Made by a program: the position numbers and the translations under genes. A DNA stretch of 64,000 nt from Limimaricola pyoseonensis (GTDB lineage Bacteria > Pseudomonadota > Alphaproteobacteria > Rhodobacterales > Rhodobacteraceae). This document shows positions 35,520 to 47,213 of this stretch, piece by piece; position 1 is the stretch's first letter; each line of letters begins with the position of its first letter. Under the pieces are notes generated by a model. The model searched no databases and had not been told where the DNA came from. It worked only from the letters and a program-made list of their open reading frames with translations. The DNA is taken from contig NZ_FNAT01000001.1 of NCBI RefSeq assembly GCF_900102015.1, positions 62,001-126,000 on the forward strand, in the 5' to 3' direction.

Positions 35520-36719
35520 ATGCAGCGGTCCGAGGTGCGCAGCCTGTCGGGTGGCGCGAACCAGAGGGGGTTGCGCGACCACAACGCGCGGCTGTTGCTG
35601 ACCCTGATGCAGCGTCACGGGCCGCTGCCGGGCAGCGATCTGGCGCGGCTGGCGGGGCTGTCGGCCCAGACCGTCTCGGTGATCCTGCGCGAGCTCGACG
35701 AGGCCGGCATGTTGACCCGCGGCGCGCCGCAGCGCGGCCGCGTCGGCAAGCCGCGCGTGCCGGTCGGGCTGAACCCGGACGGGGCCTTCTCGGTCGGGCT
35801 GAAGGTGGGGCGGCGCAGCGCGGATCTGCTGATCGTCGATCTGCACGGCCGGGTGCGCGGGCAGCTGCACGACACCTACCGCTACCCCGACCCGGCCGAC
35901 ATCATGCGGTTTCTCGAATCGGGGCTGGCCGAGCTCGTGGCGGGTCTGCCGGCGCGGCTGCGCGACCGGATCGTTGGCATCGGCGTCGCCCGGCCGGGCG
36001 AGCTGTGGGTCTGGCACGAGACGGTCGGCGCGCCGCCCGCGGCGCTCGACGGCTGGCGCGGCTTCGATTTCGCGGCGGAGGTCGCGCGCTTTTCGGCCCT
36101 GCCGGTCCATGTCGACAACGACGCCACCGCCGCCTGCCGGGCCGAGCACGTGTTCGGCCGGGGCCGCGAGTTCCGCGACTACGCCTATTTCTTCGTCGGC
36201 TCCTTCATCGGCGGCGGCATCGTGCTCAACCATTCCGTGTTTGGCGGCGCGCAGAACAATGCCGGCGCCATGGGTCCGATCCCGACGCGCGACGCCGCCG
36301 GCCGCCCGGCGCAGCTGCTCGACACCGCCTCGCTGCATCTGCTCGAACGCCGCCTCGTCGAGGCCGGGCACGACCCGGCGCGGCTGTGGAGCCTGCCGCA
36401 GGACTGGTCGGGCCTCGAGCCGATGGTCGAGCCCTGGCTCGATTCGGTGGCCGAGGAGCTGGCGCGCGCGGTGGTCGCGGTCTGCGCGGTGATCGATTTC
36501 GAGGCGGTATTGTTCGACGGCGGCTTTCCCGAGCCTGTGCGGGCCGCCCTGGTCGAACGCGTGCGCGACGCGATGGGCCGGATCGACCTGCGCGGCCTCA
36601 TTCCGCCGCGGATCGAGGCGGGCACGGTCGGGGGCAACGCCCGCGGTCTCGGCGCCGCCAGCGCGCCGATCTTCGCGCAGTTCCTGCTCGACACCCATGC
36701 CGGCTTCGCCGCCACCTGA
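35520..36719 (+). CDS. frcR: ROK-family transcriptional regulator of the frc operon
   Basis: 399 residues from the ATG with GGGAGG 8 bp upstream; an ATG at 35481 falls inside the palindrome and has no ribosome site. A winged helix at about residues 25-75 (LAGLSAQTVSVILRELDEAG) precedes the ROK sugar-kinase-like domain, with GVARPGEL and a VDNDATAACRAE region. Divergent position argues that it represses frcBCAK in the absence of sugar. Confidence 0.87.
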   Translation: MQRSEVRSLSGGANQRGLRDHNARLLLTLMQRHGPLPGSDLARLAGLSAQTVSVILRELDEAGMLTRGAPQRGRVGKPRVPVGLNPDGAFSVGLKVGRRSADLLIVDLHGRVRGQLHDTYRYPDPADIMRFLESGLAELVAGLPARLRDRIVGIGVARPGELWVWHETVGAPPAALDGWRGFDFAAEVARFSALPVHVDNDATAACRAEHVFGRGREFRDYAYFFVGSFIGGGIVLNHSVFGGAQNNAGAMGPIPTRDAAGRPAQLLDTASLHLLERRLVEAGHDPARLWSLPQDWSGLEPMVEPWLDSVAEELARAVVAVCAVIDFEAVLFDGGFPEPVRAALVERVRDAMGRIDLRGLIPPRIEAGTVGGNARGLGAASAPIFAQFLLDTHAGFAAT

Positions 36720-41088: not shown

Positions 41089-41901
41089 TCAGCCGTGCAG
41101 CGGGCCGGTCGAGGAGAAGAACATCGCCTGGCTCACCGCCGAGCGCACCTGCTCCTCGCCATAGGGCTTGGAGATCAGGAAGGCCGGCTCGGGCCGCTCG
41201 CCGGTCAGGAGCCGCTCGGGGAAGGCGGTGATGAAGATCACCGGCAGGTTGCCATGCGTCTCAAGGATGTCGCGCACCGCATCGATGCCCGAGGAGTTGT
41301 CGGCAAGCTGGATGTCGGCCAGCACGAGGTCGGGCTTTTCCTGCTGCGCGAGCTTGACCGCGTCGTCGCGGGTGCGCGCCACGCCGGTGATCGCGTGGCC
41401 CATGTCCGAGACGATCGACTGCAGGTCCATGGCGATGATCGCCTCGTCCTCGATCACCAGGATGCGGCCGGCGATGCTGTCTTCCATCTCCTGGCGGGCG
41501 ATCTTCACCAGATGCTCGACCTCGTCCTCGTCGAGTTGCATGATCGCCGCGATCTCGGAGATCGCGAAATCCTCGATCGTGTAGAGCAGCAGCGCTTCGC
41601 GCGTGTTGGGGGTCAGCTTCGACAGATGCGCCTGCGCCGCGGCGGCAAGCCCGCTCTCTTCGCCCGAGACCGGTGCGCCGGAGCTCACCCAGATGGTGTG
41701 GAACACCTTGAACAGGGCGATGCGGGGCGAGGCGGAGGTGTCGAAGACGGACCGATCTTCGAGGATCGCCTCGAGCGTGGCCGCGGCGTAGGTGTCACCG
41801 CTGTTCTGGCTGCCGGTCAGCGCCCGCGCATAGCGGCGCAAATAGGGCAGCTCGTGCCCGATCACCGTGGCGAGGTCGGGTGCGGTGGTTGTCGTCGTCA
41901 T
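41089..41901 (-). CDS. phyR: General stress response anti-anti-sigma factor PhyR
   Basis: 270 residues. The N-terminal half is sigma-like (residues about 10-140, with LPYLRRYARALTGS and LTPNTREALLLYTIEDF) and the C-terminal half is a receiver with E151/D152, phospho-acceptor D196, T225 and K245. When phosphorylated, PhyR binds NepR and frees EcfG. It is divergent from nepR-ecfG, the standard alphaproteobacterial layout. A perfect EcfG promoter lies 38 bp upstream, giving positive feedback. The ATG at 41901 is the one matching family length. Confidence 0.96.
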   Translation of the reverse strand: MTTTTTAPDLATVIGHELPYLRRYARALTGSQNSGDTYAAATLEAILEDRSVFDTSASPRIALFKVFHTIWVSSGAPVSGEESGLAAAAQAHLSKLTPNTREALLLYTIEDFAISEIAAIMQLDEDEVEHLVKIARQEMEDSIAGRILVIEDEAIIAMDLQSIVSDMGHAITGVARTRDDAVKLAQQEKPDLVLADIQLADNSSGIDAVRDILETHGNLPVIFITAFPERLLTGERPEPAFLISKPYGEEQVRSAVSQAMFFSSTGPLHG

Positions 41902-41938: not shown

Positions 41939-41964
41939 AACGTGGCTGCCGGCATTGTGGTTCC
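41939..41964 (-). promoter_or_regulatory. EcfG-dependent promoter of phyR
   Basis: On the minus strand GGAAC (41960-41964), a 17-base spacer and CGTT (41939-41942) match the EcfG consensus exactly. The plus strand also has GGAAC at 41932-41936, making an inverted GGAACC/GGTTCC pair, but no CGTT at proper spacing follows it toward nepR. Confidence 0.8.
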
Positions 41965-42018: not shown

Positions 42019-42231
42019 ATGACACAACGGGACCAGCGGGGCGCGCGCGGTGACGACATCGACGCCCATCTCAGGCGCGCGTTCCAACAGCTCACCGATG
42101 AGACGCTGCCGGATCGATTCACCGATCTGCTCGAGCGGCTGCGGGCGGGTGAGGGCGCGGAGGCGTCGTCCGATACGGATCAGCCGGACCGGGAAACCGT
42201 GGAAGCGGTCAGAGCTGACAGGAATCAATAA
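42019..42231 (+). CDS. nepR: Anti-sigma factor NepR
   Basis: 70 residues. The two short helices of NepR are recognisable in LRRAFQQLTDETLPDRFTDL (about residues 18-37), flanked by disordered, charged ends. It holds EcfG inactive until phospho-PhyR takes over. The stop overlaps the ecfG start by one base (TAATG). The ribosome site (GCGGG) is weak. The 117-bp gap to phyR holds the phyR promoter. Confidence 0.93.
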   Translation: MTQRDQRGARGDDIDAHLRRAFQQLTDETLPDRFTDLLERLRAGEGAEASSDTDQPDRETVEAVRADRNQ

Positions 42232-42788
42232 TGCCAGAGCAGGATCCGAGAGAAGAACTGGTCGGACATCTTCCGGCCATGCGGGCCTTTGCGCTCTCGC
42301 TGACGCGCAACGGGGCGCAGGCCGACGACCTGGTGCAGGACACCGTGGTCAAGGCCTGGACCAATTTCGACAAGTTCAAGCCCGGCACCAATCTGCGCGC
42401 CTGGCTGTTCACCATTCTGCGCAACACCTTCTACTCGGGCCGGCGCAAGGCGCAGCGCGAGGTCGCCGATGTCGATGGCGTGTTCACCGCCTCGCTGGCC
42501 GAGAAGCCCGCCCATGACGGGCGCCTGCAGATGAACGATTTCCTCGCCGCCTTCGCCAAGCTGCCCGACGAGCAGCGCGAGGCGCTGGCGCTGGTCGGGG
42601 CGTCCGGCTTCTCCTACGAGGAGGCCGCCGACATGTGCGGCGTGGCGATCGGCACCATCAAGAGCCGCGCGAACCGGGCGCGGGTGCGGTTGGCGGAACT
42701 GCTCGAACTCGAAGGCGAGGACGGGCTGGGGATGACCGACGAGGCGACGATGGCGGTCCTCGCGGCGCAAGGTGGACAGCACTTGTGA
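42231..42788 (+). CDS. ecfG: General stress response ECF sigma factor EcfG
   Basis: 185 residues, ECF sigma of the EcfG (ECF15) group. Region 2 has DDLVQDTVVKAW and FKPGTNLRAWLFTILRN; region 4 has LPDEQREALALVGASGFSYE and GTIKSRANRAR. It directs RNA polymerase to GGAAC...CGTT promoters. Between nepR and the kinase gene, with overlapping ends on both sides. Confidence 0.95.
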   Translation: MPEQDPREELVGHLPAMRAFALSLTRNGAQADDLVQDTVVKAWTNFDKFKPGTNLRAWLFTILRNTFYSGRRKAQREVADVDGVFTASLAEKPAHDGRLQMNDFLAAFAKLPDEQREALALVGASGFSYEEAADMCGVAIGTIKSRANRARVRLAELLELEGEDGLGMTDEATMAVLAAQGGQHL

Positions 42789-44539
42789 CATCCGAGGAGG
42801 GCGCGCGGAACCGGACGGCGCGGGCCGGCGGCTGGTTCAGCACGCATGGGCTCGTGCTGCGCGTCGTCGCGTTTTTGACGATCGCGCTGATGCCGATCGG
42901 GCTGATCGCGATCTATCAGACCGCGGAGTTTCAGCGCGAGGCCCTGCGCCGCTCCGAGCTGTCGCTCCTGGCCCTGACCGGCCAGGCGGCGGCGCCGGTC
43001 GAGCAGACCATCGAGCGCGCGCTCGGCGTGGCCGAGGCGCTGGGCGCGGTGATCGACCAGATCGATGACACCGGCGCCTGCTCCTCCTTTCTCGACCGCT
43101 ACAACGAGGGCCGCAGGCTCTACGCGCTGATCGGCCTCGTCAGCCCGGACGGAATCATGCGCTGCTCCTCCATGGGGCGGTCCTTCGACATGCGCGGCGG
43201 CGGCATCTGGGAACAGATGTCGCGCCGGCCCGCGGCGATCGTCACGCAAGGCCGGCGCGAGGCGGTGGCCGACGAGCCGCTGATCAACGTCGCCACCCCG
43301 ATCCTGGAGGATGGCGAGTTCCTGGGCTACGTGCAGATCGCCATCCCCCAGCGCCGGATCGCCGCGCCGGCCGCCATCGTCGACACCGACCAGGCGCCGC
43401 TGCAGCTTGCCACCTTCAACGAGCTGGGCGAGGTGCTGACCGAACAGAACCCCGACCGGCCGCTGGGCACGCTTCTGCCGCAGGGCTTCGACCTGGCCGA
43501 CAAGGCGGGCCTGCGGGCCACGGCCACGGTCGGCACGGCACCTGACGGGACGGCGCTGGTCTATGCCGTGACGCCGCTGGTGACCGGCGCGGTCTACGCC
43601 GTCGGCGTCTGGCCCCCGATCGAGGGCTTCGGCCCGACCGTTCTGCCCAGCCTGTTTCCGGTGCTGATGTGGGGCGCGAGCCTGCTGGTGGCTTATTACG
43701 CGATCCACCGGCTGGTGATCCGTCACGTGCGGCGGCTGGGCCGCAATATGCGCCGCTTCGGGGCCGACCGGCAGCTGCCGCCGCGCGCCGCGACCGCCGA
43801 CATGTCGCGCGAGCTGCGCGAGATCGAGGGCGAGTTCGTGCAGATGGCCGGCAACATTTTGCAGGACGAGGCCCGGCTTGAGGACCAGCTGCGCGAACGC
43901 GGCATCCTGCTGAAGGAGGTCCACCACCGGGTGAAGAACAACCTGCAGCTCATCTCGTCGATCATGTCGATGCAGATGCGGCGCACCCGGGACCAGAGCA
44001 CGCGCGACATCCTGAGCCGACTGCAGGACCGGGTGCTGGGCCTCGCCACGATCCACCGCACCCTTTACGAAAGCCAGGATGTGGGCCGGGTCGACGCCGC
44101 GCGGCTGATGCGCGAGATCGTCGGCCAGCAGACCTCCGGCGCCGGGGGCGGGGTCGATCTCAGGTTCGATCTCGAGGAGCTCGAGCTGCTGCCCGACCAA
44201 GCGGTGCCACTGTCGCTTCTGACCTCGGAGGCGCTGGCCAACGCCCTGGCCAACATGAAGCCGGCGCAGGGCGAGACCGGCTGGATCGCCGTGGGGCTGC
44301 GCCGCGACGGCGACGGCATGGCCGCCGTCGAGATCGCCAACGCCGCCGCCGGGGCGGAGACCGAGGCCGACGCCGCGGCACCGGCCGGCGCGCGCTCGGG
44401 CGGGTTGGGCATGAACCTGATCCAGGCCTTTTCCGCGCAGCTGGGCGGGCCGTGCGAAATTTCTCACCGCGACGGGACCTACAGGCTCTCCACGCGTTTC
44501 CCGATCAGAGAAACCCAATACGATCCTCAGGACTACTGA
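42785..44539 (+). CDS. Membrane sensor histidine kinase of the general stress response (HWE/HisKA_2 type)
   Basis: 584 residues from a GTG overlapping the ecfG stop. One helix at about 24-44, a periplasmic sensor of about 250 residues with C99 and C127 in a Cache-like arrangement, and a second helix near 285-305. A linker follows and then the HisKA_2 H-box EVHHRVKNNLQL, with H381 the likely phospho-acceptor, and an ATPase domain ending in GGLGMNLIQAFSAQLGG. This kinase type phosphorylates PhyR. Its place in the sigma operon argues that it is a direct input, though a phosphatase role is possible. Confidence 0.9.
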   Translation: MTSEEGARNRTARAGGWFSTHGLVLRVVAFLTIALMPIGLIAIYQTAEFQREALRRSELSLLALTGQAAAPVEQTIERALGVAEALGAVIDQIDDTGACSSFLDRYNEGRRLYALIGLVSPDGIMRCSSMGRSFDMRGGGIWEQMSRRPAAIVTQGRREAVADEPLINVATPILEDGEFLGYVQIAIPQRRIAAPAAIVDTDQAPLQLATFNELGEVLTEQNPDRPLGTLLPQGFDLADKAGLRATATVGTAPDGTALVYAVTPLVTGAVYAVGVWPPIEGFGPTVLPSLFPVLMWGASLLVAYYAIHRLVIRHVRRLGRNMRRFGADRQLPPRAATADMSRELREIEGEFVQMAGNILQDEARLEDQLRERGILLKEVHHRVKNNLQLISSIMSMQMRRTRDQSTRDILSRLQDRVLGLATIHRTLYESQDVGRVDAARLMREIVGQQTSGAGGGVDLRFDLEELELLPDQAVPLSLLTSEALANALANMKPAQGETGWIAVGLRRDGDGMAAVEIANAAAGAETEADAAAPAGARSGGLGMNLIQAFSAQLGGPCEISHRDGTYRLSTRFPIRETQYDPQDY

Positions 44540-46221
44540 TGCCCGACGACGAGAAGAGCGGCGCCGCCCTGCCGCTGCGCGAGCGCCGCGGCACCCGGTT
44601 GACGGACACCGAGAGGGGCGAGAACGACCCGGCCCATGCGGACTGGGCCGACGATCCGCTGCCCGATCCCGAGCTGCCGCATGACGACCCCGAGACCCCG
44701 CTGCCGCTGATCACGGCCGAGCAGGCGTACCCGGTGCTCGAGCGCTGCTTTCTCGAGGCCGAGCGGCAGGTGCGGATGTCGTTCCGGGTCTTCGACCCCT
44801 TCGCGCGGGTGCATTCCAAGAGCGCACGCGAGATCGGGGATGTCTGGTTCGACCTGATCGCCCACAAGCTCGGCCAGGGCGTGCGTGTCGAGCTGGTGCT
44901 GACCGATTTCGACCCGGTCGCGGTGCCGGCGATGCACGCCATGACCTGGGACGCCGTGCGCGGCCTGCTGGCGGCGGGGGAGGCCTCGGGCCGGCCCGAG
45001 CTGCTCAGCGTCGAGGCCTCGCTGCACCCCGCGCGGGTCGGCGTCGTGCCGCGCGCGCTGCTGTGGTACCGCAGCTGGAGCGAGATCCGCCGTGTCACGC
45101 GCCGGCTCGCCAGCCTGCCCAAGGCGGAGCGCGCCGAGATGCTGCGCCTGCGGCCCGGCTTACGGCGCTACGTGACCGAGCGCAAGGGCCGGCTGGTGCC
45201 GCGCATCTGGCCGATCCCCGAGCTGACGCTCGCCACGCATCACCAGAAGATCGCGGTGTTCGACGACCGCTGGCTCTATATCGGCGGGCTCGATCTCGAC
45301 GACCGGCGCTACGACACGCTGCGCCACGACCGCCCGGCGCAGGAGACCTGGCACGACGTGCAGCTTCTGCTCGGCGGGCCGGCGGTGCGCGACGCGCATC
45401 GCCACCTCGATAGCTTTCGCAACGTCACGCACGGTGCGGCCCCGCCCGACACCGGCCAGGTGCTGCGCACCATTTCGGCCCGCCGCAGCCCGGCGATCTT
45501 CAGGATGTCGCCCGACCGCAAGGTGTCTGAGCTCTACGAGGCGCATCGCGCGCTGATCGGCGGCGCCCGCGACCTGCTCTATGTGGAGACGCAGTTCATG
45601 CGCGACCGCAATCTCGCGCGCCGGATCGTGCGGGCCGGCCGGGCCAATCCCGGGCTCGGCCTGGTCATGGTGATCCCGGCGGCGCCGGAGGATGCGGCCT
45701 TTTCCGAGGCGCGGGTCGATGCCCGCTATGGCGACTATCTGCAGGCGCGCTGCATCTCGAAGATCCGGCGCCAGTTCGGCGAGCGGGCGCTGATCCTGTC
45801 GCCGGCCGAGAAGCGCCGCGCCGACGACCGCGACAAGGGGCCGCGGGCCCGGCTGTGGCGCGCGCCGATCGTCTATGTCCACGCCAAGGTGGCGATCGCC
45901 GACGGGCGCGAGGCGATTGTGTCCTCGGCCAACATGAACGGCCGCAGCATGCACTGGGACACCGAGGCGGGCGTCGTGCTCGACCGCGCCGGCACCGCGC
46001 GCCGGCTGCGCGACGCCTGCATGGCGCACTGGATGGGCGAGGAGGGGCCGCAGCGCGAGGACGAGACCGGGCCCGAGCTGGTGGCCCGCTGGCGCGGCAT
46101 GATCGAGGCCGACCGCGGCCGCGTGCCCGAGCTGCGGCGCGGGCTGCTGCTGCCCTATCCGCTGCGGCCGGCCTGGCGGCTCGGCCGCAACGTGCCGGGC
46201 GTGCCCGAGGCGATGGTCTAG
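44539..46221 (+). CDS. Phospholipase D-like protein
   Basis: 560 residues; the ATG overlaps the kinase stop (TGATG). Two HKD motifs are visible: HHQKIAVFDDRWLYIGGLD (about residue 233) and VHAKVAIADGREAIVSSANM (about residue 450). The pair defines a phospholipase D/cardiolipin synthase-like active site. No N-terminal helices are seen, unlike typical cardiolipin synthases, so it may be soluble or peripheral. It is the fourth gene of nepR-ecfG-kinase-PLD, suggesting membrane lipid remodelling under stress. Confidence 0.9.
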   Translation: MPDDEKSGAALPLRERRGTRLTDTERGENDPAHADWADDPLPDPELPHDDPETPLPLITAEQAYPVLERCFLEAERQVRMSFRVFDPFARVHSKSAREIGDVWFDLIAHKLGQGVRVELVLTDFDPVAVPAMHAMTWDAVRGLLAAGEASGRPELLSVEASLHPARVGVVPRALLWYRSWSEIRRVTRRLASLPKAERAEMLRLRPGLRRYVTERKGRLVPRIWPIPELTLATHHQKIAVFDDRWLYIGGLDLDDRRYDTLRHDRPAQETWHDVQLLLGGPAVRDAHRHLDSFRNVTHGAAPPDTGQVLRTISARRSPAIFRMSPDRKVSELYEAHRALIGGARDLLYVETQFMRDRNLARRIVRAGRANPGLGLVMVIPAAPEDAAFSEARVDARYGDYLQARCISKIRRQFGERALILSPAEKRRADDRDKGPRARLWRAPIVYVHAKVAIADGREAIVSSANMNGRSMHWDTEAGVVLDRAGTARRLRDACMAHWMGEEGPQREDETGPELVARWRGMIEADRGRVPELRRGLLLPYPLRPAWRLGRNVPGVPEAMV

Positions 46222-46235
46222 GCCGTCCGGCCCGC

Positions 46236-46261
46236 GGAACATCACGCCTTCCCGCGACGTT
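46236..46261 (+). promoter_or_regulatory. EcfG promoter upstream of a 28-codon ORF
   Basis: GGAAC (46236-46240), a 17-base spacer and CGTT (46258-46261) match the consensus exactly, with the same spacing as the phyR promoter. Transcription would begin near 46268, about 30 bp before a well-formed small ORF. Confidence 0.75.
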
Positions 46262-46296
46262 GGCCCGCCACACGGCATGACCCCCAGGAGGACGAA

Positions 46297-46383
46297 ATGT
46301 CCATCGGCGCCATGGCGGCCGGCCTGGCAGGTCTGGTCGTGGTGGCGTTCCTGATTTTCCTGCTGACGGGGGGAGACGGGTAG
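46297..46383 (+). CDS. 28-residue single-helix membrane peptide, probable stress-response member
   Basis: The ORF reads MSIGAMAAGLAG, then a hydrophobic stretch LVVVAFLIFLL, ending TGGDG. The ATG has AGGAGG 6 bp upstream, a near-ideal ribosome site. It is one transmembrane helix with a glycine/alanine face that could pack against another helix. The exact EcfG promoter upstream and the strong ribosome site support a real gene. I do not recognise a family. It may modulate a membrane protein during stress. Confidence 0.65.
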   Translation: MSIGAMAAGLAGLVVVAFLIFLLTGGDG

Positions 46384-46489
46384 CGCAAGCCATGACCGTC
46401 CAGCTGCCGAGACGGTCGCGGCCGGTCGCTCTTTGCCTCCGACGGGTGCGAAGGTGCGGCCGGCCGATCCGCTGGCCGGGACCGGCCAG

Positions 46490-46518
46490 TTGAAACCCCT
46501 CCGGCGGACCACTAAGAC
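46490..46518 (+). promoter_or_regulatory. Candidate clpP promoter
   Basis: TTGAAA (46490-46495), a 17-base spacer and TAAGAC (46513-46518), about 50 bp before clpP. TTGAAA also resembles the -35 of heat-shock (RpoH) promoters, which often drive clpP. The rest of the 188-bp gap shows only a weak 7-bp hairpin at 46394-46417. Confidence 0.4.
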
Positions 46519-46571
46519 TCGCAAAGCCCCAGAGGCTGGAAGACGCAAGCGTTCCCGAGAAGGCAGAGCAG

Positions 46572-47213
46572 ATGCACGATCCCATTGAGACCTACATGAA
46601 CCTCGTCCCGATGGTGGTCGAGCAGACCAGCCGCGGCGAGCGCGCCTACGACATCTTCTCGCGCCTGCTGAAGGAACGCGTGATCTTCGTGAACGGCCCG
46701 GTGCATGACGGCATGAGCCAGCTCATCGTCGCGCAGCTGCTGCACCTCGAGGCCGAGAATCCGAAGAAGGAAATCTCAATGTACATCAACAGCCCCGGCG
46801 GTGTCGTCACCTCGGGCCTGTCGATCTACGACACCATGCAGTACATCCGGCCCAAGGTCTCGACCCTGGTGATCGGCCAGGCGGCCTCGATGGGTTCGCT
46901 CTTGCTGACCGCCGGCGAGAAGGGCATGCGCTTCTCGCTGCCGAACTCCCGCGTCATGGTGCACCAGCCCTCGGGCGGCTACCAGGGCCAGGCGACCGAC
47001 ATCATGATCCACGCCGCCGAGACCCAGAAGCTGAAAAACCGGCTGAACGAGATCTACGTCCACCACACCGGCCAGCCGCTGGAAAAGGTCGAGGCGGCGC
47101 TCGAGCGCGACAACTTCATGTCGCCCGAGGAAGCCCGCGACTGGGGCCTGATCGACGAGATCCTGACCAGCCGCGATCAGGGCGAGGACAAGACGCCCAA
47201 CACCGCCGGCTGA
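46572..47213 (+). CDS. clpP: ATP-dependent Clp protease proteolytic subunit
   Basis: 213 residues. The serine protease triad is S106 (GQAASMGS), H131 (MVHQPSGG) and D180 (RDNFMS). It forms two stacked heptamers and degrades proteins fed by ClpX. clpX follows after 149 bp, the standard pair. Confidence 0.97.

Follow-up and report, generated by a model that had tools for sequence, protein, structure and literature searches.

A putative single-helix membrane protein gene behind an EcfG-type promoter at the general stress response locus of Limimaricola pyoseonensis

In the general stress response (GSR) of alphaproteobacteria, phosphorylated PhyR draws NepR away from EcfG (see the summary in PMC5830050); in Rhodobacter sphaeroides, PhyR is reported to be important in membrane stress, not in general stress (PMC5830050). 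The closest described counterparts of the gene reported here are themselves small membrane proteins. MgrB, a 47-aa protein of the PhoQ/PhoP regulon, inhibits PhoQ (PMC8404706, PMC10576120). The predicted peptide from Limimaricola pyoseonensis resembles MgrB as a small single-pass membrane protein with a promoter under the output of the pathway, and it is encoded beside a membrane kinase; MgrB, however, is enterobacterial and acts on PhoQ, and the likeness drawn here is a functional analogy only. Proteins of the DUF1328 (PF07043), Pmp3 (PF01679) and PLDc_N (PF13396) families are likewise small, have EcfG-type promoters and are encoded at the same Rhodobacteraceae GSR loci, but they belong to other sequence families and are longer or contain two hydrophobic stretches; in a Pfam search, neither our peptide nor its relatives matched these models. 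Finally, DSHI_RS22650 (WP_012187309, Dinoroseobacter shibae plasmid pDSHI02) and ROLI_RS23285 of Roseobacter litoralis are relatives of the tail-bearing members of the family described below, sharing a GGAAC-N16-CGTT motif upstream of their unit but differing in length (54-56 aa), in a basic tail, SK[YR][RK]TE.RMDDP...KS[ST]LAAD, and in being plasmid-borne; we know of no experiment on either. On pDSHI02 (locus L226, 3720-4165), the motif stands before a two-gene unit for small membrane proteins of 64 and 54 aa, itself located behind amidoligase and GATase genes. The longer plasmid-borne relatives in Dinoroseobacter, Roseobacter and Roseinatronobacter are annotated "hypothetical protein", and the literature searched yielded no paper on this family.

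The window—the whole 64,000-nucleotide stretch of L. pyoseonensis DNA that we analysed—contains a GSR locus in which an earlier note had proposed a small membrane-protein gene that follows an EcfG-type promoter and adjoins the stress sigma operon. The elements on which that proposal drew, a GGAAC-N17-CGTT motif of the same form as the phyR promoter followed by AGGAGG and a 28-codon open reading frame (ORF), were all found:

41089-41901, minus strand: phyR (PhyR_sigma2 and Response_reg), with its own EcfG-type promoter
41939-41964, minus strand: EcfG-type promoter of phyR, GGAAC-N17-CGTT (motif scan)
42019-42231, plus strand: nepR (PF18557, 47.6 bits)
42231-42788, plus strand: ecfG (Sigma70_r2 and r4_2), adjoining nepR and phyR
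42785-44539, plus strand: gene for a membrane HisKA_2/HWE sensor histidine kinase (PF07568, 80.5 bits) with a hydrophobic helix near the N-terminus
44539-46221, plus strand: PLD-like phospholipase-family gene (PF00614, PF13091), its ATG overlapping the kinase stop codon
46236-46261, plus strand: EcfG-type promoter GGAAC-N17-CGTT, GGAACATCACGCCTTCCCGCGACGTT (motif scan; boxes kept in 8 Limimaricola genomes)
46286-46291, plus strand: AGGAGG ribosome-binding site (GAGGACG kept in all relatives)
46297-46383, plus strand: 28-codon ORF, ATG...TAG, MSIGAMAAGLAGLVVVAFLIFLLTGGDG, predicted single-helix membrane protein (conserved in 7 congeners and Pseudoroseicyclus; HMM decoy test)
46394-46417, plus strand: inverted repeat GACCGTC-N10-GACGGTC, candidate terminator, conserved in congeners
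46572-47213, plus strand: clpP, downstream neighbour of the small ORF

The order of PLD gene, promoter, ribosome-binding site, 28-codon ORF and clpP is kept in 7/7 other Limimaricola genomes, and the Limimaricola peptides share the consensus MTIAxMVAALAGLVVVAFLIF(L/V)LTGGDD. Across codon positions 1/2/3, variable columns number 3/5/16, and pairwise dN/dS within the genus runs from 0 to 0.36, mostly <0.3; on this pattern we consider the 28-codon gene to be real, and 46297-46383 is almost certainly translated. In Pseudoroseicyclus aestuarii, MTIGAMVLALAAVVVIAFLIFLLTGGGQ is encoded between PLD and clpP, downstream of GGAAC-N16-GGTT, and a scan of genome contigs gave matches in Limimaricola and Pseudoroseicyclus only. 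Conservation of the reading frame in relatives was one of two points on which the earlier note had staked its proposal; the frame is kept in the seven congeners and Pseudoroseicyclus, and together with the conserved promoter this lends strong support to the gene proposed. The single membrane helix of that note also stands, though its richness is in alanine and glycine, concentrated in the first half, and not in glycine alone. We dismissed the 33-aa ORF at 46392, the frame of which is shifted by an indel in relatives. A 24-aa membrane peptide, MRNIIYIIGLVVVVVAVLSLAGII, also very short, follows a GGAAC-N16-CGTT motif (L064 1501-1632; G000 C8, ~36293-36423), and both peptide and promoter are conserved in all 8 Limimaricola genomes.

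Downstream of the ORF, the segment CCATGRCCGT...GACGGTC (46390-46417) is nearly invariant in Limimaricola and non-coding; it is perhaps a terminator hairpin, one that is weak in fold statistics (z -1.67) and differs from the predicted fold. Further on, a conserved TTGAAA...CTAAGAC at 46491-46525 suggests a stress promoter belonging to clpP itself, possibly of RpoH type; given this conserved upstream segment of its own, clpP is probably a unit separate from the small ORF.

Within the 64-kb window, the number of EcfG motifs did not exceed chance (2 seen vs 0.49 expected, equalled in 12 of 100 shuffles), and we therefore drew our evidence for the promoter from conservation instead. In the 8 Limimaricola genomes, the two boxes (GGAAC and CGTT) show 100% identity, and identity is 45-46% in the two spacer halves, 47% in the 12 nt 3' of CGTT and 75% in the 12 nt 5' of GGAAC; the spacer itself is N17 in the window and N16 in the other seven genomes. 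Over the whole genome the motif occurs at 61 sites vs 20 with a reversed control, many of them upstream of recognisable stress genes with the start codon 27-60 nt further on. The motif goes beyond chance: the genome-wide excess speaks for this and the conservation of the boxes settles the matter. Its form agrees with the EcfG motif of Sphingomonas melonis, GGAAC-N17-20-GTT (PMC6599016). With 35 nt between CGTT and its ATG, the 28-codon ORF has the GGAAC-N16/17-CGTT promoter shortly upstream that marks the EcfG regulon, and the gene is very probably EcfG-driven.

PLD homologues are present in 79/297 genera, and behind one of them, in genome G282, an EcfG-type site is followed by MSTDLFVGGLSILSVVALLVLALTSKKRVERRKDDDDWNGPGVV, which resembles a weak match in G120, MTADIFVAAMAGLTVIAVLIYALTSTRDRDRDTR. 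A profile of these peptides and the G282 protein were used as queries to gather the family, yielding short ORFs of one plan (28-70 residues, a single helix) in ~30 Rhodobacteraceae genera, a count that takes in members encoded elsewhere than at the GSR locus, some of which have no motif close by. The plan begins with four or five residues, continues with a helix that ends in AL(T/S)SK and usually closes with a basic or polar tail, and the window peptide, at 28 aa, is its shortest representative. Sequence alone identified 30 members, and in 20 of these GGAAC-N16/17-(C/G)GTT stands 20-60 nt upstream of the ATG, compared with a background of 6.6% of SD-preceded ATGs in GSR loci that itself includes true EcfG genes; the 30 reflect searches cut at E ~0.1, a cut at which tail-less forms elsewhere may be missed. 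The basic C-terminal tail (SKKR...KSSLAKDG) is short in G171 and G120 and absent in Limimaricola and Pseudoroseicyclus, which we accordingly file as a tail-less short form that keeps the helix. Since basic segments lie on the cytoplasmic side under the positive-inside rule, the tail suggests a cytoplasmic C-terminus in the members that bear it; the Limimaricola peptide is without K or R.

An HMM built from 15 non-Limimaricola members gave the window peptide 21.3 bits vs 10.2 for the best decoy, with 0/1157 transmembrane-helix windows scoring as high, a profile similarity that goes beyond hydrophobicity. We judge it probable that the Limimaricola peptide belongs to this wider family, the placement of the 28-aa form resting on a short hydrophobic stretch together with synteny. 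When 397 Rhodobacteraceae genomes were searched with the one peptide, most matches were transmembrane segments within larger proteins, at E >0.1, and real members are separable only by profile, ORF size, promoter and synteny combined. No Pfam or NCBIfam model scored above cut-off for the window peptide or the family; the best Pfam match of the former, DUF3309 (PF11752), reached a sub-threshold 13.4 bits vs a gathering score of 22.3, and membership was rejected. A class-wide search of 190 genomes gave no convincing member outside Rhodobacteraceae. AlphaFold, run on the family alignment, predicts one helix at residues 3-36 (mean pLDDT 83) and adds little.

Reading up to 16 kb around each of 20 family members, we found close homologues of the window PhyR and/or kinase 0.1-6 kb away in 15. 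The window peptide has the same position by phyR, nepR-ecfG and the kinase gene, 1.76 kb behind the last, whereas in five other genera (G098, G414, G086, G243 and G013) the peptide gene follows the kinase gene by 80-140 bp. What lies between varies—PLD, or amidoligase and GATase, or nothing—and a PRC-barrel gene sometimes comes next; CsbD was also found behind PLD. As clpP adjoins the peptide gene only in Limimaricola and Pseudoroseicyclus, synteny across genera led us to dismiss a link to clpP, or one uniquely to PLD; the association of the predicted peptide is with the phyR-nepR-ecfG-kinase locus. Reading 80 further loci added G013, G208, G097, G171 and, doubtfully, G089. PhyR is present in 111/249 Rhodobacteraceae genomes, and in this sample, not selected for the peptide, ~15/111 phyR genomes (~14%) carry the peptide gene there; it therefore does not belong to the core functions of the GSR. 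On the PhyR tree its presence needs 7 changes vs 18.3 for shuffled labels; by this measure, the putative gene has passed down in blocks and been gained or lost repeatedly. Small transmembrane ORFs driven by an EcfG motif, one or more per locus, occur in 51/96 Rhodobacteraceae GSR loci (L249-L328 among the loci read), DUF1328, PLDc_N and Pmp3 being among them. DUF1328 beside phyR is the commonest such ORF.

These observations identify 46297-46383 as a genuine gene for a predicted small single-pass inner-membrane protein. Under stress, PhyR would be phosphorylated and EcfG freed from NepR; EcfG would then transcribe the peptide gene as a separate short unit, and the strong ribosome-binding site would allow the peptide to be made and inserted in the inner membrane, where it would be a direct membrane-protective or membrane-tuning effector and not an enzyme subunit. 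By analogy with DUF1328, Pmp3 and PLDc_N at the same loci, we give such a stress-induced effector role about an even chance. Three points place it first: the companions at the locus are small membrane proteins of this type, most GSR loci do without the peptide, and in Rhodobacter sphaeroides PhyR acts in membrane stress.

Ranked second, since the gene keeps its place close to the kinase as other neighbours change, is the tentative possibility that the EcfG-made peptide feeds back on the pathway: it would bind the adjacent HisKA_2/HWE kinase at its membrane part, damping or sharpening PhyR phosphorylation, much as MgrB, made under PhoQ/PhoP, inhibits PhoQ. An EcfG-type promoter of its own at the very locus that controls EcfG, and the close spacing behind the kinase gene in the five genera named above, are consistent with this; on the other hand, ~86% of GSR loci have the kinase without such a peptide, some family members are encoded outside the GSR locus, and this locus also gathers many plain effector genes. 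Of the partners that the earlier note suggested the peptide might tune, a transporter, kinase or protease, the kinase is thus a candidate, and the likelihood of a direct membrane effector is no lower.

The earlier note had also proposed searching related genomes for the peptide downstream of PLD genes. It lies directly behind PLD in Limimaricola, Pseudoroseicyclus and G282, and G137, G113 and Roseinatronobacter have a PLD close by, as would fit an accessory role of the peptide with an envelope enzyme encoded beside it (PLD-like here, amidoligase/GATase elsewhere); we consider this unlikely, given that most PLD loci examined are without the peptide, many peptides are without PLD and the intervening gene is interchangeable. 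More improbable still is a stress-induced type I hydrophobic toxin that, like TisB, would lower the membrane potential: size, single helix and stress promoter would suit one, but the leader appears short (~28 nt) with an open, strong ribosome-binding site, purifying selection is strong, the gene recurs at one locus and the helix has no charged amphipathic face. That the ORF is a chance frame, or a leader controlling clpP, which in Limimaricola and Pseudoroseicyclus follows 189 nt later, is scarcely credible against its frame conservation and codon-position pattern, the conserved upstream segment of clpP itself and the retention of gene and promoter in relatives without nearby clpP.

Small membrane proteins induced by stress are familiar; the family described here is one that Pfam and NCBIfam have not catalogued. 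A practical rule follows: an EcfG motif, 25-40 nt, a strong ribosome-binding site and a short hydrophobic ORF would point to real genes that annotation misses or calls hypothetical. Were the less probable feedback on the kinase to hold, the family would be a pathway-encoded regulator of the alphaproteobacterial GSR that sets the activity of its HWE/HisKA_2 sensor kinase. Its recurrence beside phyR/nepR-ecfG-kinase provides a defined, testable gene set for how the GSR may act at the membrane in Rhodobacteraceae.
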